Assembly (NCBI GenBank): GCA_947503435.1
Contig: CANNDL010000002.1
Span: 310,001 to 374,000, forward strand
Source of the DNA: an uncultured Kangiella sp.
Lineage (GTDB): Bacteria > Pseudomonadota > Gammaproteobacteria > Enterobacterales > Kangiellaceae
DNA: 64,000 bases
Direction of reading: 5' to 3'
Positions 41,678 through 52,460 of the stretch are shown in pieces. Positions within the stretch are counted from its first letter, which is position 1. Each line of letters starts with the position of its first letter. A program made the translations under genes and the position numbers. The notes beneath the pieces were generated by a model. That model was not told the origin of the DNA, searched no databases, and saw only the letters and a program-made list of their open reading frames with translations.

Positions 41678-43225
41678 CTATTTAGATTTAGCTTTTACTA
41701 CTAACGCTTTTACATCTTCTCTAAGTTGCTTTGCATCATATAAAATTCCGTCCTTGATGGTGTATTTTACCCCACCAACACGTTTAGCTACATTATCTAA
41801 ACCTAAACGGTAATGGCCTGTTCCGTATAATACTTTGAAGTTAGCGATAGGGTTTTCTTCAACAATAACTAGATCAGCTAATTTGCCCGGTAAGACCGAG
41901 CCAATTTGGCCTTCCATACCCAACGCCTCAGCGCCATTTAAAGTAGCGGATTGAATGACTTCCAAAGGATGAAAACCTGCTTCTTGCAGAAGTTCCATTT
42001 CACGGATATAACCAAAGCCAAAGATTTTATAAATATAACCAGCATCTGATCCGATTGTTACCCGTCCACCATGATTTTTATAATCATTTAAAAAGTTCAT
42101 CCATTTTCTGAAATTGGCTTTCCAATCGATTTCGTTTTGTGTTGTCCAGTCAAAAAAGTAGGAGCCATGAGATTCTCTGTTCGGCTCAAAAAACGCCTTC
42201 AACTTTGGATGGGTATAATCATGATGCCAATCTGCATTCCGCTCACGCATCACATCCCGGCTAGCTTCATAAATGGTCATAGTAGGGTTTATGGTAAAAT
42301 CTAACTCAATTAGCTCGTCACGTACCGCATTCCATTTATCACTACCCTCTGCAGCTGCTTGTTGCCACAAACGCCCTGCCTCGGTAAAGCGGTGAGACTC
42401 ATTATTGTAGTTATAATCTAATGGGTAATCTTGTATGACCATATCTTCAAACATTGCTTCGGGTAAACCATACCAATGTTCCATCGTGGTTAAGCCCATT
42501 CGAGCAGAATCTAACGCATTGGTACCCACCACATTCAATTGAGCATGATGCATAGCTGTACCTAACTTTTGTTTTTGAGCTTCATCTAATGCCGCCGCCA
42601 TCATCTTTTTAGGCAGGCCAAAGAACTTGATACCTTTCGCGCCTTTTTTAGCGACATGACGCACCCACTTGCGTGCTTCTTCTGGTGTAGTAATTTGCTT
42701 ATCCCAGTCCATATTAAAACCTATGTAAGGAATAATTCTAGGTGCTGTAATTTCATTTTTTTGACTTAACTTCTGATGCTTTAAAGTCCAGTCCAAACCA
42801 TTAAAACTCCCAGGTTCGCGCACAGTGGTAATGCCATGAGCTAACCACAATTTAAACGGATATTCTGCAGGCAAACCATCAACACTACCGGCGATATGGC
42901 CATGTAAATCAATAAAGCCAGGCAAGACATAATTTCCGCTAATATCAATAACCCGATCTGATTCATTAGAAATTGGTCTGCGCCCTTCTTTAATCGTAAC
43001 GCCTGGTGCGCCTACGGATTGTACAGATATAATTTTATTACCTTGAATAACGATATCTACTGGGCCTGTAGGTGGCGCGCCTTCACCATTAATCAAAATG
43101 CCGCCACGCAAAATAAGACGATTAAAAGGACCTTCGCCTTCTGATACTAAAGGAGCGTCTAATGTTGCTGACATTAGATGCATGGAAAAGAAGCAAAAAG
43201 CAAAACCAATAAGAAGCTTTTTCAT
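41678..43225 (-). CDS. Secreted amidohydrolase
   Basis: 515 residues with an N-terminal signal peptide (MKKLLIGFAFCFFSMHLMSA). Metal-dependent hydrolase of the imidazolonepropionase-like type: PGFIDLHGHIAG holds the HxH pair, GIKFFGLPKKM the carboxylated-Lys region, HHAQLNVVG and TIGSDAGYIYK the other metal ligands. Substrate could be a proline-containing dipeptide or a cyclic amide, not decidable. Follows a secreted unknown gene at 43279 by 53 nt on the same strand, so likely an operon. Confidence 0.85.
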   Translation of the reverse strand: MKKLLIGFAFCFFSMHLMSATLDAPLVSEGEGPFNRLILRGGILINGEGAPPTGPVDIVIQGNKIISVQSVGAPGVTIKEGRRPISNESDRVIDISGNYVLPGFIDLHGHIAGSVDGLPAEYPFKLWLAHGITTVREPGSFNGLDWTLKHQKLSQKNEITAPRIIPYIGFNMDWDKQITTPEEARKWVRHVAKKGAKGIKFFGLPKKMMAAALDEAQKQKLGTAMHHAQLNVVGTNALDSARMGLTTMEHWYGLPEAMFEDMVIQDYPLDYNYNNESHRFTEAGRLWQQAAAEGSDKWNAVRDELIELDFTINPTMTIYEASRDVMRERNADWHHDYTHPKLKAFFEPNRESHGSYFFDWTTQNEIDWKANFRKWMNFLNDYKNHGGRVTIGSDAGYIYKIFGFGYIREMELLQEAGFHPLEVIQSATLNGAEALGMEGQIGSVLPGKLADLVIVEENPIANFKVLYGTGHYRLGLDNVAKRVGGVKYTIKDGILYDAKQLREDVKALVVKAKSK

Positions 43226-43278
43226 TATCGTATCTCTAGAATTTAATGAGCAAACTGTATCATAGTAAATAAGAATTC

Positions 43279-43848
43279 CTATATTTTATCGCAATTAAGT
43301 CTAAATCCTTCTTGCCATTTTTTGCCGTCATTTAAAGCTGAAGATTCATATTTCCAGTCAAAGTGCTTTTCGCTAATATTATGAAACGTTATCTTCGCTT
43401 TGTGTGCTGGGCCTCTAGGGCTAGCAGGATACTCTCCGTCCATTACTAAACTTTCGCCATCAAATTTTGCATCAAAATTTTGGAAGCGGGCTAACTTGTC
43501 GAAGGTCCAAGTCATCAACCAAGAATCGTTTTGTGGGTTGTAGATACGAACATTTGTACCCATACCAGGAGCTTCCAAATTTTCGGCATTTGGATACCAA
43601 TAATCTTGGATGGCATGACCATTAAGAGTGTACCGCCATTCCCAGCGAGATACTTGTTCGGGTATTTGCCAACTACCATCTTGTTGGCGTACTTGACGTT
43701 TACATTTCCAATCACCTATCAATGGTAGCATCGATTTAACGCTATCAGCAGCGTCTTTTGCTGGTGTCATTGAAGTATAATCAGCACTTGATACAGTAGA
43801 AATAGCAAGGAATGTAATTAAAGAAATTGATTTATAGATAGTCTTCAT
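43279..43848 (-). CDS. Secreted DUF1579-like/lipocalin-like protein
   Basis: 189 residues with a signal peptide (ISLITFLAISTVSSADY). The mature chain begins with a helix and then antiparallel strands rich in Trp (GDWKCKRQVRQQDGSWQIPE, SRWEWRYTLNGHAIQDYWY, NDSWLMTWTFDKLARFQNFD), as in small beta-barrel proteins that resemble lipocalins. Two Cys (in DWKCKR and RLNCDKI) may form a disulfide tying the ends. Same strand and close to the amidohydrolase. Function unknown. Confidence 0.65.
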   Translation of the reverse strand: MKTIYKSISLITFLAISTVSSADYTSMTPAKDAADSVKSMLPLIGDWKCKRQVRQQDGSWQIPEQVSRWEWRYTLNGHAIQDYWYPNAENLEAPGMGTNVRIYNPQNDSWLMTWTFDKLARFQNFDAKFDGESLVMDGEYPASPRGPAHKAKITFHNISEKHFDWKYESSALNDGKKWQEGFRLNCDKI

Positions 43849-43927
43849 ACGATACGGCCCCCATAGTTAGTAATAAGGACAATGCCGCATCAGTCTTCTA
43901 ACTGCAAAGAAAAAATGTGTCTAAATG

Positions 43928-44833
43928 TTAACCGTTTTTATTTACGACGCCATTGGGAACGTGTCCGCTTGCAATATGTTCTTTAGCTCGGTCGATATGC
44001 CCTTCCTGATCATCAAAGAAAACATCGGCGCCAAACGCTTTTAAAAACTCAGTTTTATCCATTCCACCGAGGAACAACGCTTCATCAATACGAATATCCC
44101 AATAGCGCAGTGTACGGATAACGCGTTCATGAGCAGGGGCTGAGCGAGCTGTAACTAATGCGGTTCTGATTGGGCACTCTTCGGAGCTGTATTCTTTTTG
44201 AATTTTGTGTAGCGCGGCCAAGAAATCTTTAAAAGGACCGCCTTCTAACGGCTTTTGCGCTGAGGCTTTTTCATGCTTCGTGAACTCTTCTAAACCACTT
44301 TGTTGATAGACCTTTTCAGCCTCATCTGAAAACAAAACTGCATCACCATCAAAAGCAAATTTAATATGAGTTAAGTCACTTTTAGCTTGATTGGGCGCGA
44401 CAATAGTTGCCGCGGCTATTCCATTATCAATAGCTTGCTTAACATCATAAGGATTAGTCGATAAAAACAAATGGGCACCAAAAGCTGATGCGTACAAATA
44501 AGGACTATTTCCTGAAGTGAAAGCCGCGCGCGTTATTTGTAATTCATGATTTTCAATTGAATTAAAAACCCTTAATCCAGTATCAGCGCTATTACGAGAA
44601 AGTAGTATAACTTCAACTCTAGGCTTACCTTCGGCACCTATATTTAGATCAAGTAATTTTTTAACTAAACCAAATGCAGCACCAGGTTTTAATAGCTCAT
44701 CTTCGTGATCTATTTGATACTGGGCATAAGAATCAACACCTTTATCTAGATATACTCGATGACTATCAGCTAAATCGAATAAAGCGGTAGACGAAATAGC
44801 GATTACCAGAGTGTCGTTAAACTCAATTGGCAT
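43928..44833 (-). CDS. 5'-nucleotidase (NT5C1-like)
   Basis: 301 residues matching the bacterial relatives of cytosolic 5'-nucleotidase IA (PF06189). Characteristic parts: VIAISSTALFDLADSH, ILLSRNSADTGLRVFNSI, FAFDGDAVLFSDEAE (HAD-like Asp pair) and FLGGMDKTEFLKAF. Predicted to remove phosphate from nucleoside monophosphates in the cytoplasm. Seven nt after the mlaA stop; possibly co-transcribed. Confidence 0.88.
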   Translation of the reverse strand: MPIEFNDTLVIAISSTALFDLADSHRVYLDKGVDSYAQYQIDHEDELLKPGAAFGLVKKLLDLNIGAEGKPRVEVILLSRNSADTGLRVFNSIENHELQITRAAFTSGNSPYLYASAFGAHLFLSTNPYDVKQAIDNGIAAATIVAPNQAKSDLTHIKFAFDGDAVLFSDEAEKVYQQSGLEEFTKHEKASAQKPLEGGPFKDFLAALHKIQKEYSSEECPIRTALVTARSAPAHERVIRTLRYWDIRIDEALFLGGMDKTEFLKAFGADVFFDDQEGHIDRAKEHIASGHVPNGVVNKNG

Positions 44834-44839
44834 TTAGAG

Positions 44840-45571
44840 TTAAAACTCCTGGCAATCTTCTTCGAATTCACATTCATCATCTTCAATCGGCGGTTTGCCA
44901 TCATGAATTAAGAATTGACGGCGTTGTAAGTATACATCTCGGATTAAAGTATAATCATCGGGAGCCGAGTTAAGCTGATCTTCTAGACTCAGAAGACCCG
45001 CACGCGTTTGAATAATATCTAAAAGGCGTAAACCAATCTCCGTTTGGGTATCGTTTTCCAACTCTTCATACAGATTGTAAATAACAAAGCTATCCACGCC
45101 CTGACCTACCAAATCTCTAGTAGTAGAAGGCCCTAAAAAAGGCAGCATTATATAAGAGCCATCGCCTACACCCCAGGTAGCAAGGGTTTGACCAAAATCT
45201 TCCGGTTGATGCTCAATACCCATGTCCGTAGCTGGGTCAAGTAAGCCGCCTAAGCCTAAGGTTGTGTTAATCAGGAAACGGCCTGTGTCTTTTAAAGCTT
45301 TGCCAAGTTTAAATTGCAATACATCATTGATAATGGTCGGCACTTCACCAATATTTGAAAAGAAATTAGAGACTCCAGTTTCGACAACGTCAGGAGTTAT
45401 CGCTTTATAGCCTTTTGCAACGGGTTTTAAAATAGCTTTATCAACACCTTTATTAAAATCCCAAACTTTCCGGTTAAATCCTTCATAAGGATCTTGTGGA
45501 TTGGAGCCTGTAGATGCACAGCCAGCCGCAAGAAAAGACAATATAATGATGGTAAAGAGTTTAGATTTCAT
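44840..45571 (-). CDS. mlaA: MlaA (VacJ) outer-membrane lipoprotein
   Basis: 243 residues. Lipoprotein signal FTIIILSFLAAGC with Cys18. DPYEGFNRKVWDFNKGVDK, FFSNIGEVPTIINDVLQ, and the conserved HQPEDFGQTLATWGVGDGSY are family hallmarks. MlaA takes misplaced phospholipids from the outer leaflet and hands them to MlaC. The C-terminus is acidic (DDECEFEEDCQEF). The rest of the mla genes are not in the window. 55 nt after hvfC on the same strand; read-through is possible. Confidence 0.94.
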   Translation of the reverse strand: MKSKLFTIIILSFLAAGCASTGSNPQDPYEGFNRKVWDFNKGVDKAILKPVAKGYKAITPDVVETGVSNFFSNIGEVPTIINDVLQFKLGKALKDTGRFLINTTLGLGGLLDPATDMGIEHQPEDFGQTLATWGVGDGSYIMLPFLGPSTTRDLVGQGVDSFVIYNLYEELENDTQTEIGLRLLDIIQTRAGLLSLEDQLNSAPDDYTLIRDVYLQRRQFLIHDGKPPIEDDECEFEEDCQEF

Positions 45572-45626
45572 CCTACAACCTTTTTAATAGTTATTACCGC
45601 TTATTGTAACAACAAGTGACTAAAAG

Positions 45627-46406
45627 TTATAGATTGACTCCTAGAATTACATCTCGTTCCAAAAAATCTCGGAGTATTTGTTTACCGCCTTCGATAAGCT
45701 GTAGCGGATTTGGGAATTGAGACTCACCTTGCAATTGAGCTATAGCTTCTTCACCAGTTAATTGAAGATTTTTTTCAGCCTCAGCTTCTTGTAAAATTTC
45801 AAGTAATCGATAGGTAATCGCATTAGTTTCCATAAAATCTACTTCATGCTCACGATTTCTTGAAATGATTAGAAAAGTTGGCTGCTCAGGTTCTGATTCT
45901 GGTAAGTAAGCATCTCCGATTCGATGTACAGGGTATTGATAAACCAAAGGCCATGCCAATGGTGATATCACTATTTTCTGCTGATACAAGTCGCCATTAC
46001 GATCATGTGGAAATTGTTTAATATCACCTACATCAGATAAAGCATTGAGCTCCATCCATTCCCAGTGAGCTAACTCAAGCATAAAAGGATAATCATCATT
46101 TGACGTTTCACGGTGATTTTCTAAATAATCCAAAAATGCTTTGGAAATGTCCTTAAAATATGGACTATGTGCACGGTAATGAACAAAGAAATCTCTTACT
46201 AATTGATGCCATTTTTCCTCAGCAATTAAATCTCTTAATATTGGGAAGCTATTACTGCAAAAGTTTTCAACATTGTTATAAAACAAGTCTCTATACACTT
46301 TCATCCGTCTATCTTCAATATTGGAAGGCTTGGCAACTCCTTCCGGGTTCCTTAAATGTCCGGCGAAATCAAATTGCACTTGTTGAAACTTAGGTAAGTT
46401 GCTCAT
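45627..46406 (-). CDS. hvfC: HvfC-type RiPP maturation partner protein (DUF2063)
   Basis: 259 residues. The N-terminal DUF2063 domain shows FQQVQFDFAGHLRNPEGV, RMKVYRDLFYNNVENFCSNSF and FFVHYRAHSPYFKDISKAFL, which fold as a helical recognition domain. The C-terminal half has a mixed domain of about 150 residues. HvfC is the obligatory partner of the MNIO enzyme HvfB and helps it bind the precursor. It lies 12 nt after hvfB. No DoxX-type hvfD or hvfE gene follows; mlaA does instead. Confidence 0.9.
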   Translation of the reverse strand: MSNLPKFQQVQFDFAGHLRNPEGVAKPSNIEDRRMKVYRDLFYNNVENFCSNSFPILRDLIAEEKWHQLVRDFFVHYRAHSPYFKDISKAFLDYLENHRETSNDDYPFMLELAHWEWMELNALSDVGDIKQFPHDRNGDLYQQKIVISPLAWPLVYQYPVHRIGDAYLPESEPEQPTFLIISRNREHEVDFMETNAITYRLLEILQEAEAEKNLQLTGEEAIAQLQGESQFPNPLQLIEGGKQILRDFLERDVILGVNL

Positions 46407-46418
46407 AATTTTCTACCT

Positions 46419-47267
46419 TTAAGCAATGGCTTTGCCGCTTAAATCTTGAGCTAAATATTTTTGCTGAATCGTTTTTATTTGTGCTACTTCAGCCAATAAC
46501 TGGTCCATTGGTGGAATATTAAAATCACGCTCAAGCAGAGTTGGAAATACGCCAAATTCTTGATATGCAATTTCTAACAAAGCCCAGACATCAGGTTTTA
46601 CGTCTGCTCCGTGAGTATCGACCTTTAAATCATCCGCTTCATCATAATGACCGGCAATATGGGCGTAAGAAATTCGCTCCTTAGGTAACGCCTTCAAGAA
46701 CTCTTCAGCATCGTAACGGTGATTTATGCTATTCACATAGATATTATTAACGTCCAATAATAAATCACAATTAGCTTCTTCAAGTACCGCCAGCAAAAAA
46801 TCCAGCTCCTTCATTTCCTGGCCTGGAGCGGCATAATAAGACACATTTTCCATAGCCAGCTTCATACCAATAATATCTTGAACCTGCTTGATTCGATCAG
46901 CCACATAGTGAACCGCTTCTTCGGTGAACGGAATAGGCATCAAATCGTATAAATGACCATCATCGCTACAATAGCTTAAATGTTCACTATAAGACTTAAT
47001 ATTATATTTCTGGATAAACTTAGCCACTTGTTTTACAAAGTCAGTATCCAGAGGCGTTGGCCCGCCAATTGATAAGGATAAACCATGAATTACAAACGGA
47101 TAGCGTTCTGCATATTGTTCAAACTGCTTACTAAACTTCCCCCCAAAAGGAATCCAGTTTTCTGGAGCAACTTCCATAAAATCAACGCATGAACGACTAA
47201 TCGCATCAAATTCGTCAGAAAAATCACGTCGTAATCCTAATCCTGCGCCTGTTACTAATTGGGTCAT
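46419..47267 (-). CDS. hvfB: HvfB MNIO-type RiPP maturase (DUF692)
   Basis: 282 residues, TIM-barrel multinuclear non-haem iron oxidase. Recognisable metal-site parts: VAPENWIPFGG-type opening (MEVAPENWIPFGG), HGLSLSIGGPTPLD, SEHLSYCSDDGHLYDLMPIP, ENVSYYA, LLLDVNNIYVNSINH, AHIAGHYDEADDLKVDTHG and LLERDFNIP. Members oxidise Cys residues of a precursor to thiooxazole or oxazolone-thioamide groups. AAAGG lies 8 nt before the ATG. The gene lies just past a terminator behind hvfA, so it is expected to be expressed below the precursor. Confidence 0.94.
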   Translation of the reverse strand: MTQLVTGAGLGLRRDFSDEFDAISRSCVDFMEVAPENWIPFGGKFSKQFEQYAERYPFVIHGLSLSIGGPTPLDTDFVKQVAKFIQKYNIKSYSEHLSYCSDDGHLYDLMPIPFTEEAVHYVADRIKQVQDIIGMKLAMENVSYYAAPGQEMKELDFLLAVLEEANCDLLLDVNNIYVNSINHRYDAEEFLKALPKERISYAHIAGHYDEADDLKVDTHGADVKPDVWALLEIAYQEFGVFPTLLERDFNIPPMDQLLAEVAQIKTIQQKYLAQDLSGKAIA

Positions 47268-47304
47268 TGGGAGAACCTTTCACTAAACTGTTTCTTTAGA
47301 TATG

Positions 47305-47331
47305 AAAAAGTGGCAGCAAGCTGCCACTTTT
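47305..47331 (-). terminator. Intrinsic terminator between hvfA and hvfB
   Basis: On the minus strand AAAAGTGGCAGC-TT-GCTGCCACTTTTT, a twelve-pair stem with a T tail, 20 nt after the hvfA stop and 38 nt before the hvfB ATG. It should stop much of the transcription and leave the precursor mRNA in excess. Confidence 0.85.
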
Positions 47332-47350
47332 ATTCGAGAGAGTTAAAAAA

Positions 47351-47878
47351 TTAACCGCCGCATTTACCTTCGCCGCACTTACCTTCTTTTCCTTTTTTCT
47401 CGCCTTTCTCGCCGCATTTACCTTCGCCGCACTTACCTTCTTTTCCTTTCTTTTCGCCGCACTTACCTTCGCCGCACTTACCTTCTTTTCCTTTCTTCTC
47501 GCCGCATTTACCTTCGCCGCACTTACCTTCTTTGCCGTCTTTCTTGGATTCGCCGCATTTACCTTCGCCGCACTTACCTTCTTTTCCTTTCTTCTTACCT
47601 TTTTCGCCGCACTTACCTTCGCCGCATTTGCCTTCTTTGCCGTCTTTCTTGGCTTCGCCGCATTTACCTTCGCCGCACTTGCCTTCTTTGCCGTCTTTCT
47701 TGGCTTCGCCGCACTTGCCTTCACCGCACTTGCCTTCGCCATCGAATTGCGCAAGGTTATAGCCTTGTGATAGATCATTAACTGCAAATGGGCTTGCAGA
47801 AGCTGTAGTCATTGCAACAGAGGCAGCTAATGAAGCTGATACTAAAACCGCTAATTTACTTTTATCTTTCTTCAACAT
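47351..47878 (-). CDS. hvfA: HvfA-type RiPP metallophore precursor
   Basis: 175 residues. Signal peptide about 1-28 (LAVLVSASLAASVAMTTASA), then a short leader with PFAVNDLSQGYNLAQ, the conserved HvfA element. From residue 48 to the end the chain consists of eight EGKCGEGKCG pairs, so 16 EGKCG motifs and 16 Cys, separated by Lys-rich spacers (EAKKDGK, EKGKKKGK, ESKKDGK, EKKGK). The Cys are expected targets of HvfB-HvfC and the product likely binds copper, as for characterised EGKCG precursors. AGGAG is 7 nt before the ATG. An opposite-frame ORF over the repeats is an artefact of the repetitive DNA. Confidence 0.92.
   Translation of the reverse strand: MLKKDKSKLAVLVSASLAASVAMTTASASPFAVNDLSQGYNLAQFDGEGKCGEGKCGEAKKDGKEGKCGEGKCGEAKKDGKEGKCGEGKCGEKGKKKGKEGKCGEGKCGESKKDGKEGKCGEGKCGEKKGKEGKCGEGKCGEKKGKEGKCGEGKCGEKGEKKGKEGKCGEGKCGG
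47354..47737 (-). repeat. Coding tandem repeat of hvfA
   Basis: Eight copies of a near-identical 30-nt unit for the EGKCG pair, split by 15- to 24-nt spacers. The nucleotide copies differ only at a few third positions, so recent expansion or gene conversion is likely and the copy number may vary. Confidence 0.85.
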
Positions 47879-47918
47879 GAGATTACTCCTAAAATGTGTT
47901 TACAATATAATCAAGCAG

Positions 47919-47947
47919 TTAGACATAAAGCCTTGAAGATTGTTACA
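47919..47947 (-). promoter_or_regulatory. ECF-sigma-like promoter of hvfA
   Basis: -35 TGTAAC (47947-47942) and -10 GTCTAA (47924-47919), 17 nt apart. The AAC core and the GTCTAA form are typical for ECF sigma factors rather than sigma70. Predicted start near 47912, leader about 35 nt. Confidence 0.55.
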
Positions 47948-48020
47948 TCTAAACTTTGATAGTTTGAGACTAATCGCTGTTTTTTATTAAGTCAAAGCAT
48001 AGGTAGGATTATTTTAGAAA

Positions 48021-49040
48021 CTAGTTCACAGATTGATCAATTGCTAGCTTATAGGTTTGAGCGGCTTTCAAGCCATTGAATGTACTTGTTCTCCCATACA
48101 AATCACCAGTTTCTGATTTTGCAAATCCAGACTTAGAAAGTCTTATTTCCATATATAAATCAATAACTTGCCAAAAATCAGTATCCTTCAACATGAGATT
48201 AGAAGGGGTCATAGTAATCACGGGGGTTAATTCATTAATATCTAACGCTTTTACTGCAATTGGCGCACCACCAGCGGCCGGTCTTATCAGTGCAAATGCC
48301 TTTGTAAATGAGTGTAAAGGTACGTTAGCAAAATTATCAATTTCAATTGATATGTAATTTAGAGCAGCTTCAGCTTGTTTTTTCTTCGCCAAATCAATTT
48401 GTTGCTGTATCAAGTTTGCCGAATCACTACTTGGCTCTCTTAGAGAAACTAAATAATTCCAAGAGTCGATGGCCATTTGATAATCATCTAATCGCATAGC
48501 AGCCATTCCTCTAAGCAACAAGGCTCCTTCGTGCTTAGGATTTTTCAACAAGACTAACTCTATATAAGATAATGCTTCTTTATAATTCTTTCGTTCGATA
48601 TATGTCTGAGCGACTTCAAGCTTGCTTTTATTTTGCTGCATAATATCGCCAAAATTGACTGCTCTACCAAACGCTTGCTCAGCCAGCTCTTGTTGTTCTG
48701 ATTGCAGTAATAGTCGTCCAAAAGTCATCCAATTTTCGGAAGTATCATCTTCTAAGTTGCGCAGCCTTACCTCAGAAAACAATTCTTCTATGCTGATTTC
48801 TTTATTGCTTGTTTTTTCTAGTAAAGCCCTTAAATCATCCGCCTTTAATGATTCATGCAATCTGCTTAATTTCTGAAGTTCTTTTGTTGCACCTAATTGC
48901 ACATAAAGAGCATAGGAACTAACTACCGCTAATAAACACGAACTGGTGAATACCAACAATCTTTGCTTACTCGAATAAACGCTAGCAAAGAGCCAAGTTG
49001 CCCACGCTAGAGCGACTACCGTAAAAAGTGCAATTACCAT
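48021..49040 (-). CDS. ccmI: Cytochrome c maturation protein CcmI
   Basis: 339 residues. Two N-terminal helices (about 1-45) frame the cytoplasmic loop with a leucine-zipper-like character, then a periplasmic TPR domain (GRAVNFGDIMQQNKSKLEVA, NYKEALSYIELVLLKNPKHE, LLLRGMAAMRLDDYQMAIDS) and a C-terminal strand domain. CcmI holds apocytochrome c for the haem ligation complex CcmFH. Last gene of ccmABCDEFGHI. Confidence 0.9.
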   Translation of the reverse strand: MVIALFTVVALAWATWLFASVYSSKQRLLVFTSSCLLAVVSSYALYVQLGATKELQKLSRLHESLKADDLRALLEKTSNKEISIEELFSEVRLRNLEDDTSENWMTFGRLLLQSEQQELAEQAFGRAVNFGDIMQQNKSKLEVAQTYIERKNYKEALSYIELVLLKNPKHEGALLLRGMAAMRLDDYQMAIDSWNYLVSLREPSSDSANLIQQQIDLAKKKQAEAALNYISIEIDNFANVPLHSFTKAFALIRPAAGGAPIAVKALDINELTPVITMTPSNLMLKDTDFWQVIDLYMEIRLSKSGFAKSETGDLYGRTSTFNGLKAAQTYKLAIDQSVN

Positions 49041-49043
49041 CAG

Positions 49044-49448
49044 TTATATTTCTTCCGCTTCAGGCTTTAACTTTCTTTTGCCTACTTTTGTTACTAGAGC
49101 AGCAATAATAATTAGAAATACGATTATTGGCATAAACCAAAGAACATAATTCTTTGGTGAAACAGGAGGATCATAGAGTACAAAGTCACCATATCTGTCT
49201 TGCATATATTGCAAAATGGTGGCCTTGGTTTCACCAGCTTTTAACTTTTGATAGACAATATAACGTAAGTCTTCAGATAATGGCGCATCAGAATCTGCTA
49301 TCGACTGATTTTGACATTTTGGACATCGAAGTTCGCTAATAATCTCTCGATAGGTCTTTTCTTGAACTCCGGAATCAAATTGGTAAGTTTCATTCGCCAA
49401 TAAACCAAATGAAAACATCAACAACCATATCGATAATAATAACTTCAT
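49044..49448 (-). CDS. ccmH: Cytochrome c maturation protein CcmH
   Basis: 134 residues. Signal peptide, then the LRCPKCQNQSIADSDAPLS motif with Cys42 and Cys45 that reduces apocytochrome thiols. A C-terminal helix (VLWFMPIIVFLIIIAALVTK) anchors it in the inner membrane. Short CcmH type; the TPR part is the separate ccmI. 3 nt gap to ccmI, 2 nt to ccmG. Confidence 0.95.
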   Translation of the reverse strand: MKLLLSIWLLMFSFGLLANETYQFDSGVQEKTYREIISELRCPKCQNQSIADSDAPLSEDLRYIVYQKLKAGETKATILQYMQDRYGDFVLYDPPVSPKNYVLWFMPIIVFLIIIAALVTKVGKRKLKPEAEEI

Positions 49449-49450
49449 AA

Positions 49451-50008
49451 TTACTCCATTCCGCTTTTATTCCAGCCAATAGATTCAAGCTTAGGGACTA
49501 TCACCTTATTCCAAACCCTATCATCAATAACTCCGACATGGCGGTCTCGTATGACGCCTTTTGCATCTACGATAAAGGTTTCTGGTGCGCCATAAACCCC
49601 TAAATCAATACCCAGCTGACCAGTGGTATCAGCTATAGAATATATAAAGGGATCACCATATTTAGCTAAGTAATTTATCGCATCTTGATGTGTATCTTTA
49701 TAATTCATACCTACCCATTTAATTGGGTATTCTTTAGAAAACTTCATTAAGTAAGGATGCTCTGCATAGCAAGATACACACCAAGTTCCCCACACATTTA
49801 GCAAAAAAATTTCTTTGGGCAAATCGGCATTGGTCAATACAGTTTCAGGGCTATTAACCGAGGCTAATTCAAACACAGGTACTTGATTGCCAATTAATTT
49901 AGTTTCGAGTTTTCTTGGATCTTTGTTTAATGAAGATTTAAAAATCAAAACCAAGATGGCAAAAATTACCAATGGAATAGAGGCGATAATGATTTTTTTA
50001 GATTTCAT
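49451..50008 (-). CDS. ccmG: Thiol-disulfide oxidoreductase CcmG/DsbE
   Basis: 185 residues. N-terminal anchor helix (about 5-23), then a thioredoxin fold with the active site WGTWCVSCYAEHP (Cys77, Cys80), a GVYGAPETFIVDAKGVIR strand with the cis-Pro. Keeps the CcmH/apocytochrome pathway reduced. Its ATG overlaps the ccmF stop by one base. Confidence 0.95.
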   Translation of the reverse strand: MKSKKIIIASIPLVIFAILVLIFKSSLNKDPRKLETKLIGNQVPVFELASVNSPETVLTNADLPKEIFLLNVWGTWCVSCYAEHPYLMKFSKEYPIKWVGMNYKDTHQDAINYLAKYGDPFIYSIADTTGQLGIDLGVYGAPETFIVDAKGVIRDRHVGVIDDRVWNKVIVPKLESIGWNKSGME

Positions 50009-51981
50009 TAAACAAGCCCTTCTTCTTTAATCGCTTTCACTTTACGGAATTTCTTTTCACGATAACGTTTATCAGAAATCGCCAACAAGCCACCTAGTGC
50101 CATAATCAATGCACCCAGCCATATCCATCGCACAAATGGTTTGTAATAAACCTTTATTGCCCAAGCGCCATTTTCTAATGGCTGAGCTAAAGAAATATAA
50201 AGATCACCAAAAAAACCTGGCTCAATGGCCGCTTCTGTCATTAATTGATTGGATACTTGATAACGGCGCTTTTCGGGTTTTAAAGTCGTTAAGTAGTTAC
50301 CATTCTTACTTACTTTCAAAGTCGCCTGCGAACTAATATAATTTTCGAAAGTATAATTATCAAATTTCTCGAAATAGATCGATAAGTTTTCAACTTGCAC
50401 AGTGTGCTTGGCTTCAATCCGAACATCTTTTTCGAAAGAATAAATCGTAGTAACAATAACTCCTATAACCGTCACAGCCACACCAATATGCGCTACTATC
50501 ATGCCCCAATAACTACGACTTAGCTTTTTCAATCCAGCCAACTGTGACTTCGCATTTTTAGTTTGTGCGTAAAGATATAATAGACAAGAAAGCATTAGCC
50601 AAATAGCTAAACTAATTCCTAACAAAGCAAACAAATCTAACTCACCAGTTAAACTAAAAATGGTAAAAACAGCTATCACTATTGCCAGCGCTAACAAAAT
50701 AAATTGCTCAATTGCAATGGTTTTTAATTTGTTTTGTTTCCAATTCATTTGCTGACCAAACGGAATTAAAAACAAAATAAAAGCAAAAAAGAATGAAAAG
50801 TACGGATCGAAAAATGGAGGCCCAATAGAAACCTTTTGCTCCAAGAAATAATCAGCTATCAAGGGATAAAGAGTGCCCAGAAAAACCACTAGCAAACAAC
50901 AAAATAGTAAGACATTATTTAAAACAATAGCGATTTCCTTAGAAATCAAGGTGTAATTATTGTTCGACTTTAATTTGTCAAACTGCCAAGCATATAAGCT
51001 TAACGCGCCGCCAACTGCAATCCCTAAAAAGGTTAATATAAATAGTCCCCGTTCAGGATCATTCGCAAATGCATGCACTGAAGTTAGGGCACCAGAGCGA
51101 ATAATAAAAGTGCCTAGCAAACTTAATGAAAAGGTTAAAATAGAAAGTAGTAACGTCCAAGATTTATAAGCACCACGTTTTTCAGTTGCAGCTAATGAGT
51201 GCATCAATGCTGTTCCTGCTATCCATGGCATAAATGCAGCATTTTCTGAAGGGTCCCAGAACCACCAGCCTCCCCAACCAAGTTCGTAGTATGCCCACCA
51301 ACTGCCAAGCGCTATGCCTATGGTCATAAAAACCCATGCAATTGTGGTCCAAGGGCGCGCCCACTTTGCCCATTTTTGATCTAAATCACCTTGCAGCAAG
51401 CCTGCTATGGCGAATCCAAATACCACCGAGAAACCCACAAATCCCATATAAAGCATTGGTGGGTGAACTATCATGCCGAAATCTTGTAGTAATGGGTTTA
51501 AATCAGATCCATCAATTGGAATAAAAGGTAAAACTCGTTCAAATGGGTTAGAAGTAAATAATGCAAAACTTACAAAGCCAACAGAAATTAAACCTAGAGT
51601 CCCTAATACTCTAGCCCGCATCTCGGGCGTTAAAGCTTTACTAAATATCGAAACAGCAGCCATCCAAGCTGCCAAAATTACAATCCAAAGTAATAACGAT
51701 CCTTCGTGAGCCCCCCAGACGGCAGTAATTTTATAGCGAAGCGGAGTGATATTACTGGAATGGTTGGCGACATAAGAAACTGAAAAATCACTTTGTACAA
51801 AAGCGATAGTAAGGCAAATATAACTTGCCAGAACCAAAATGAACTGCCCAACAGATGCTTTACTTGCAAGACGCATTAAGCCTTTGTGTTGTGTATGAGC
51901 ACCATAAAATGGCAAAGTGCCTAAAATTACTGCATTAACTAAAGCTAAAATCAGGAAAAAATGACCAAGTTCTGGGATCAT
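50008..51981 (-). CDS. ccmF: Haem lyase subunit CcmF
   Basis: 657 residues with about fifteen membrane helices. The haem-handling signature ELGWGGWWFWDPSENAAFMP is present, as are HPPMLYMG and further periplasmic His near YVANHSS. CcmF with CcmH attaches haem to the CxxCH motifs. Coupled by one-base overlaps to ccmE before and ccmG after. Confidence 0.96.
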   Translation of the reverse strand: MIPELGHFFLILALVNAVILGTLPFYGAHTQHKGLMRLASKASVGQFILVLASYICLTIAFVQSDFSVSYVANHSSNITPLRYKITAVWGAHEGSLLLWIVILAAWMAAVSIFSKALTPEMRARVLGTLGLISVGFVSFALFTSNPFERVLPFIPIDGSDLNPLLQDFGMIVHPPMLYMGFVGFSVVFGFAIAGLLQGDLDQKWAKWARPWTTIAWVFMTIGIALGSWWAYYELGWGGWWFWDPSENAAFMPWIAGTALMHSLAATEKRGAYKSWTLLLSILTFSLSLLGTFIIRSGALTSVHAFANDPERGLFILTFLGIAVGGALSLYAWQFDKLKSNNNYTLISKEIAIVLNNVLLFCCLLVVFLGTLYPLIADYFLEQKVSIGPPFFDPYFSFFFAFILFLIPFGQQMNWKQNKLKTIAIEQFILLALAIVIAVFTIFSLTGELDLFALLGISLAIWLMLSCLLYLYAQTKNAKSQLAGLKKLSRSYWGMIVAHIGVAVTVIGVIVTTIYSFEKDVRIEAKHTVQVENLSIYFEKFDNYTFENYISSQATLKVSKNGNYLTTLKPEKRRYQVSNQLMTEAAIEPGFFGDLYISLAQPLENGAWAIKVYYKPFVRWIWLGALIMALGGLLAISDKRYREKKFRKVKAIKEEGLV

Positions 51982-52460
51982 TAATAATCGCCCTTTTCAT
52001 TATTTTTTTCTTGTTTCATTTTTTCAACGCCTTCTTTATGACTTTTCTTTAAAGTGTCAGCGATTTCTGGAGGCATATATTTCTCATCGTGCTTGGCTAA
52101 AACCTTAGTCGCTTCTAAGGTTTTATTATCGACTAATTTGCCTTCAGCCATTATGCCTTGGCCTTCTCGAAATAAATCTGGCAAACTTTTATCATAAGTA
52201 ATGGTAATAACTTCTTGGTTATCGGTAATATCAAATTCTACATATAAACTATCTTTAGCACGTTTAACAGAACCAAGGGTAACCAAGCCACCAACTCTAA
52301 TAGTTTTATTTAATGGCGCATCACCCTTTACCACTCTTGTTGGCTCATAGAATGCGTCTGCATAATCGCCAATGGCATACAACAATAAAGCCACTGCAGT
52401 ACTTAATAATGCCAAGGCGCTTAAAATGGTAATTAATTTTTTCTTTCGATGTGCTTTCAT
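51981..52460 (-). CDS. ccmE: Haem chaperone CcmE
   Basis: 159 residues. N-terminal membrane anchor, beta-barrel with RVGGLVTLGSV, and the haem-binding LAKHDEKYMPPEI, where His124 carries haem covalently and Tyr128 is an axial ligand. A flexible acidic and Lys-rich C-terminus follows. The usual HxxxY form is kept. Confidence 0.95.
   Translation of the reverse strand: MKAHRKKKLITILSALALLSTAVALLLYAIGDYADAFYEPTRVVKGDAPLNKTIRVGGLVTLGSVKRAKDSLYVEFDITDNQEVITITYDKSLPDLFREGQGIMAEGKLVDNKTLEATKVLAKHDEKYMPPEIADTLKKSHKEGVEKMKQEKNNEKGDY

Follow-up and report, generated by a model that had tools for sequence, protein, structure and literature searches.

An uncultured Kangiella sp. carries, on the minus strand of a 64,000 nt stretch of its genome (the window, contig C2:310001–374000 of the 2.36 Mb genome G000), the consecutive genes hvfA, hvfB and hvfC, which are followed by mlaA and a 5'-nucleotidase gene. 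We regard hvfABC, with a probability of about 0.8, as a captophorin (oxazolin-type) operon, a further member of a published class, specifying an exported peptide with 16 cysteines. The captophorins, as grouped in PMC13097082, comprise oxazolin, fontiphorin, gonophorin and relatives, and bulbicupramide, the mmrABC product of Microbulbifer, is a related published member of the class (PMC12538549). Captophorins are a known and common class, so the locus is in itself unremarkable; what it adds is an HvfX encoded in trans, a sigma-E-like promoter box shared with msrA, and a covarying hairpin between hvfA and hvfB. Kangiella was not mentioned together with MNIO, DUF692, HvfA or ribosomally synthesised and post-translationally modified peptides (RiPPs) among the literature matches listed.

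The original prediction of an HvfABC-type MNIO RiPP locus is borne out by the open reading frames and by hidden Markov model searches, in which HvfA, the MNIO protein and the DUF2063 protein were all matched and passed the NCBIfam HvfA, HvfB and HvfC cut-offs. The MNIO (DUF692) peptide maturase HvfB (nt 46419–47267, minus strand, 282 aa) scored 446.9 bits with NF003818 (cut-off 360) and 350.9 bits with PF05114 (5.2e-105, cut-off 25). It also matched Protein Data Bank (PDB) entry 3bww (E 2.2e-80), and in the alignment the blocks HGLSLS, HLS, LDVNNIYVN, HIAGH, VDTHG and LLERDFN are kept. HvfC (nt 45627–46406, minus strand, 259 aa), a DUF2063 or NGO1945-type partner protein, reached 289.2 bits with NF050145 (cut-off 142) and 85.8 bits with PF09836 (2.5e-24, cut-off 27.2), and matched PDB 3dee (E 1.7e-9); both structures have been assigned to MNIO-PME1 clusters (PMC13097082). 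The precursor HvfA (nt 47351–47878, minus strand, 175 aa) scored 154.5 bits with the repeat model NF050137 (cut-off 19.5). A point that speaks against the assignment is its score with the full-length model NF050188, 95.3 bits for a cut-off of 95, a margin of 0.3 bit. HvfB is 91% identical to that of Kangiella sp. HZ709 and is the product of the only MNIO gene in the genome; likewise, each of the 20 Kangiella genomes compared (its own included, as in all genus counts below) has one HvfB match.

HvfA begins with an apparent Sec signal peptide (judged by eye), carries a conserved SPFxxxxLxxGY stretch, and has 16 cysteines, each within one of 16 exact EGKCG motifs. For comparison, 80 related loci were used, the best of at least 526 confirmed HvfB relatives; these are near relatives, and ten belong to Kangiella or Kangiellaceae. 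They supplied 57 complete precursors, of which 54 have the PF..L..GY stretch, and EGKCG counts ranged from 2 to 18 (median 8). Seventeen of the 20 Kangiella genomes have a complete array, with 8–16 motifs, and the count in the window is the highest. The product had been predicted to be much more repetitive than its Haemophilus counterpart. This holds in comparison with the six cysteines of Haemophilus HvfA (PMC13419390), but not with the range of the 57 precursors, nor with the roughly 2,000 EGKCG proteins of PMC12452194, the longest of which carries 58 cysteines. Sixteen repeats are thus a high yet unexceptional number, inside the known range. Counts from draft genomes can be lower bounds, because the stretch or contig ends within the hvfA repeat array in three of the 20 Kangiella genomes (G010, G013 and G014). 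A beta-helix model for EGKCG precursors has already been published (PMC12452194), and the same source describes EF-hand fusions at the precursor C-terminus. Among the related loci, two precursors (L013:19–453 and L014:4628–5143) have an EGKCG array broken by a stretch that looks EF-hand-like by eye, and a third (L080:5411–5893) has a long Met-rich stretch between KCG motifs.

Judged by analogy with characterised members, the product very probably belongs to the captophorins in both class and chemistry, that is, with cysteines converted to 5-thiooxazole, and it probably also binds copper. Fontiphorin, from fonABC of Fontimonas thermophila, likewise has EGKCG cysteines, which become 5-thiooxazole through an MNIO and PME1 with the loss of 4 H per repeat (PMC13097082, where copper binding is also reported); it has seven sites as against 16 in Kangiella. 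Oxazolin, from hvfABC-hvfX of nontypeable Haemophilus influenzae, shares an EGKCG HvfA, an MNIO HvfB and a DUF2063 HvfC (PMC13419390, PMC13097082), but has six motifs rather than 16, and in Kangiella hvfX lies outside the operon. There the active diiron state requires HvfC, and HvfA is modified by HvfBC alone (PMC13419390). Bulbicupramide resembles the present system in having three genes at the locus, a marine gammaproteobacterial host and EGKCG units, and differs in its five to eight cysteines (PMC12538549). Bufferins, which have DUF2282 or 6/12-Cys precursors, share the MNIO and DUF2063 proteins (with DoxX in some), an exported Cys-rich precursor and a link to copper (PMC12452194). The Kangiella precursor, however, has no DUF2282 match, and HvfB falls below the BufB cut-off (NF050167, 268.1 of 310 bits), so that the locus does not group with them.

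Genes for DoxX proteins and ECF (extracytoplasmic function) sigma factors are found elsewhere in the genome. Searches of the genome returned neither a DoxX gene nor a Sigma70_r4_2 gene at the hvf locus, which in this respect departs from the Haemophilus/Neisseria type with HvfX in the operon. One of the two DoxX genes of the genome, at C3:420510–421004 and so on a different contig from hvfABC, specifies HvfX (NF050144, 229.3 bits, cut-off 80); the second DoxX protein scored 30.4 bits with the same model. HvfX exceeds the cut-off in 20/20 Kangiella genomes, whereas of 14 control genomes five gave a match and none passed it. In all 20, hvfX lies next to a Glu_synthase-domain gene (PF01645), and divergent from that gene is an ECF sigma gene followed by a small anti-sigma gene. 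The anti-sigma protein of the window's own genome passes NF052368 (52.7 bits, cut-off 50), and its Cys4, His30, Cys34 and Cys37 (counted by eye) occupy the positions that PMC2893595 gives for MseR. Kangiella has a second ECF/anti-sigma pair, next to ybjQ-like and msrA genes; the ECF gene of this pair is present (at least 58% identity) in 19 of the 20 genomes and absent from G018 (best 32%), which is also without the msrA-linked anti-sigma gene. The description of the locus as a minimal three-gene form, lacking DoxX and ECF sigma/anti-sigma genes, therefore holds within the window but not genome-wide, as HvfX and two ECF/zinc-anti-sigma pairs are present in trans and an ECF-like box precedes hvfA. 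The DoxX genes had been named hvfD/E, a name not met in the literature seen, which uses hvfX.

The Glu_synthase-domain gene also occurs inside the hvf cluster at 10 of the 80 related loci, always on the same strand as hvfB and adjoining hvfX in nine, an adjacency counted without a chance control; hvfX was not found in the tenth cluster, L058. As a companion of hvfX, inside or outside hvf clusters, the gene was noted for L012, L015, L021, L024, L025, L029, L037, L053, L058 and L065, and in Kangiella its product has an apparent N-terminal membrane stretch (G000:C3, L083:57–1388). The term 'Glutamate synthase' is absent from the main texts (supplements aside) of PMC12452194 and PMC13097082, and no report pairing glutamate synthase with DUF692, DUF2063 or DoxX was among the literature matches listed.

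An alignment of hvfA upstream regions revealed a shared TGTAACAA followed, 15 nt on, by GTCTAA. In the window this promoter-like box (TGTAACAA-N15-GTCTAA) occupies nt 47919–47947 of the minus strand, with TGTAAC at 47947–47942 and GTCTAA at 47924–47919. It starts 69 nt upstream of the hvfA start codon, and its 5' end coincides with the upper limit, 47947, of the region in the original prediction. The exact pattern is found once per genome in 16 of the 20 Kangiella genomes and in 0/20 reversed controls. With up to one mismatch allowed, TGTAAC-N17-NTCTAA precedes hvfA in 19/20, including three relaxed matches; the twentieth is G013, where the stretch ends inside hvfA. The box of G012 lies 5' of the MKKDK start of the precursor. 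A similar box precedes msrA: among 19 msrA-type loci, 14 show msrA, 13 of them with the box upstream; eight of these boxes match TGTAAC-N17-NTCTAA, while one (L134) is longer by 1 nt and four end in T rather than A. The box is also present at L135, L137 and L142, where msrA lies beyond the stretch, and neither is in view at L146 and L150. The window box shares GTCTAA and the 12-nt distance with the consensus of neisserial SigE, given as GTMAGBWTT / 12–13 nt / CGTCTAAH in PMC2893595. Under that sigma stand msrA/msrB and the operon NMB2140–2145, in which DoxX, three genes of then unknown function, the ECF sigma and the zinc anti-sigma (ZAS) factor MseR are found together; in Kangiella these parts are split over two loci, and msrA with another ECF pair is at a third. 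In H. influenzae the ECF factor RpoE2 controls msrAB and the hvf operon (PMC7907618), and in Caulobacter SigF (ECF group 16) drives DUF2282-DUF692-DUF2063 operons (PMC3420878, PMC3511200). For possible ECF/ZAS control shared with msr, the sequence offers a box before both hvfA and msrA and ECF/ZAS genes in trans, and transcription of hvfA by an ECF sigma factor appears likely.

Several observations weigh against this reading, or against a single msrA-linked factor. The -35 block is a partial match to its neisserial counterpart (GTAAC for GTMAG, with C for G), and TGTAAC is the -35 element of ECF group 16 (tGTAACc-N16-CGAA in PMC3420878, GTAACC-N16-CGAA in PMC3511200), the -10 of which differs from that of the window box. 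At L138, msrA is without the box, and neither ECF gene has an exact box upstream in the loci fetched. Outside Kangiella, the strict box was found before hvfA at one of 49 scored loci (Pleionea, L016); the remaining 21 of the 70 non-Kangiella loci were unscored, their precursor or upstream DNA being missing. The base before TCTAA is G in 10/12 distinct hvfA boxes and A in 13/15 of the msrA type, so hvfA and msrA may answer to different factors. The hvfX-linked ECF is favoured by one-mismatch boxes (TGTAAT), which lie ahead of its gene in 4/20 genomes (G003, G005, G011 and G013) and, in G010, ahead of the Glu_synthase-domain gene. Conversely, G018 has the only mismatched hvfA box and is the only one of the 20 genomes without the msrA-linked ECF and anti-sigma, a coincidence that suggests the msrA-linked factor, though as a single case. 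On account of the one-mismatch boxes, we lowered our estimate for the msrA-linked rather than the hvfX-linked ECF from slightly favourable to even odds and, given these boxes and the G/A split, neither is chosen here.

Further matches to the pattern were inspected or set aside. A TGTAACAT...CATCTAA hit in 11/20 Kangiella genomes (the remaining nine have it with one mismatch) is not counted as a promoter because it lies within the hvfX-linked ECF coding sequence (ICNILEVSSS in the window's own genome). A two-mismatch search of the same genome gave 25 sites, compared with 37 in the reversed control, and was treated as noise, while TGTAAC-N(16,17)-NTCTAA gave four sites (hvfA, msrA and two near unrelated genes) and three in the control. 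A looser 11-letter pattern returned 3 to 7 sites per Kangiella genome, exceeding hvfA plus msrA, and some of these were inspected. Hits at L093 (one mismatch, near clpP), L094 (one mismatch, in alaS and near csrA) and L107 (two mismatches, near a malic-enzyme-like gene) were dropped after inspection, the genes being named by eye. A similar box, TGTAAC-N16-YGTC, is found a short way ahead of hvfB at L033:1250–1275, L044:3097–3122, L071:5920–5945 and L073:5923–5948, loci at which a script search found no EGKCG precursor gene in view.

Between hvfA and hvfB, about 20 nt past the hvfA stop codon, is a hairpin with a T-rich tail (nt 47303–47331, minus strand; 10-pair stem 47329–47320/47317–47308) that resembles a terminator or attenuator. 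Its pairs, defined from the window's own sequence, were examined in an alignment of the 70-nt windows after the hvfA stop codons of 19 Kangiella genomes, two of which (L169 and L171) were shifted by hand to include the stem. Nine of the ten pairs are changed on both sides and 95.7% of cells are paired. All of 500 shuffles stayed below the observed values for paired percentage, both-sides counts and covariation score alike, while fewer further pair types were seen than in 498 of the 500. Sliding the partner by 1–3 columns reduced pairing to 31–69%, and RNAalifold recovered the same stem from the alignment. G018 was left out because the genus-wide stem is absent there; in its place is a different, longer hairpin of about 25 pairs (L172:1363–1420; z-score -4.2). 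A strict terminator rule was satisfied in 15/20 Kangiella genomes and at 10/43 other loci, counts made without a shuffled control. The comparison concerns Kangiella, with Haemophilus DNA outside it. Probably the hairpin gives an excess of precursor over the enzymes, through partial termination or end protection.

Other explanations differ from these readings in chemistry, gene content and control. The oxazolone-thioamide group that the original prediction entertained for the cysteines of HvfA is claimed in the title of the first HvfA structural report and persists in the NCBIfam family name; it has since been revised to 5-thiooxazole (PMC13097082, PMC13419390), and HvfB scores only 48.7 bits with the MbnB model TIGR04159 (cut-off 325), so that the locus does not fall among the methanobactins. 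A product with such methanobactin-type groups, serving copper uptake instead of protection, is accordingly very improbable, although uptake and detoxification cannot be told apart from sequence alone. The suggested read-out of H2 lost per cysteine was also mistaken, as the loss of 4 H per repeat in fontiphorin leads one to expect 4 H. It is also rather unlikely that hvfABC is self-sufficient, with the hvfX and ECF genes elsewhere being unrelated. The Microbulbifer precedent supports such a system, in that the ORFs flanking mmrABC were taken as unrelated and mmrA was modified on co-expression with mmrBC in Escherichia coli (PMC12538549), as does the sufficiency of HvfBC for modifying HvfA; moreover, hvfX is not in the fetched stretch for 49 of the 80 related loci (26 of the 80 being without full context). 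Set against this are the presence of HvfX above its cut-off in every Kangiella genome, each with its one HvfB match, and the adjacency of hvfX to a gene found within the hvf cluster of 10/80 relatives. Somewhat less improbable is that the box before hvfA is the site of another regulator, or that a housekeeping promoter drives hvfABC. The partial fit of the -35 block would agree with this, as would the single copy of the exact pattern in each of the 16 genomes having it and a second upstream stretch, GTGACTTT-like, that is also similar among Kangiella; sigma-70-like sites within nt 44700–48200 are at chance number (10, with 9.5 expected). The two-block layout, the spacing and GTCTAA nevertheless agree with neisserial sigma-E, and msrA shares the box, which speaks for the ECF reading.

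The neighbourhood raises the question of a fourth gene. The order hvfABC-mlaA is conserved in 20/20 Kangiella genomes, so that mlaA, said to follow in place of DoxX genes, does follow hvfC but is not special to this genome. It (also vacJ; nt 44840–45571, minus strand, Pfam MlaA match 1.2e-76) lies 55 nt 3' of hvfC, with no terminator-like site on the same strand within the gap. Among the 80 related loci, 31 have hvfX and 31 have mlaA, the latter downstream on the same strand, and none has both; for the 54 loci with full context the figures are 19, 25 and 0 (Fisher P 1.9e-7, uncorrected for kinship). In other species, an association of DUF2063 genes with vacJ, there a predicted one, and with a cytochrome c maturation gene had already been noted (PMC2954202). 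These data, together with a gap of at most 240 nt between mlaA and hvfC in 19 of the 31 loci, would favour mlaA as a functional fourth gene, co-transcribed and tying lipid transport to the peptide, but in the other 12 loci the gap is 1.5–5 kb and holds other ORFs, some on the opposite strand, the 80 loci are uncorrected for relatedness, with Kangiella supplying 10 of the 31. We consider this role improbable and see mlaA as an old neighbour that is possibly co-transcribed, its part in the pathway being putative. On the other side, a ccmI-like gene (CcmH/CycH TPR; nt 48021–49040, minus strand), for which no pathway role is proposed, is upstream of hvfA in 17/20 Kangiella genomes; in the remaining three the stretch breaks off within hvfA. 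It is the only profile-scanned member of a run of cytochrome c maturation-like genes directly upstream (nt 48021–52460, minus strand; CcmI, CcmH, thioredoxin-like DsbE, CcmF and CcmE, named by eye). No Rfam family reached its gathering score within nt 43000–49500.

With the operon read as a captophorin system, its working may be pictured as follows. An ECF sigma factor freed from its zinc anti-sigma, as with H. influenzae RpoE2 and meningococcal SigE, would transcribe hvfA, and hvfA and msrA would be read together from TGTAAC...NTCTAA promoters, probably in response to oxidant or copper stress at the envelope. The hairpin would stop or stabilise part of the transcripts, giving more HvfA than HvfBC. 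HvfC would hold the signal/leader region of HvfA while HvfB oxidised one cysteine after another to 5-thiooxazole, each with the loss of 4 H and up to 16 per chain, and the modified chain would be exported and bind Cu(I) in the periplasm. HvfX, perhaps with the adjoining Glu_synthase-domain protein, would have a redox role at the membrane; that protein, a candidate redox partner, adjoins hvfX in other gammaproteobacterial hvf clusters too. More tentatively, the Kangiella captophorin system might be a dispersed oxidant-stress regulon, with a sigma-E-type promoter common to hvfABC and msrA, HvfX accompanied by an ECF/anti-sigma pair and by the membrane-anchored Glu_synthase-domain protein as an unrecognised redox partner, and the covarying terminator hairpin determining how much 16-site precursor is made relative to its maturase. 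The findings bear on why methionine-sulfoxide repair accompanies thiooxazole peptides, on the role of HvfX, which in Kangiella is separable from hvfABC at the level of gene location, on whether the Glu_synthase-domain protein that accompanies hvfX supplies electrons, and on how cells make sufficient precursor when modification sites are many.

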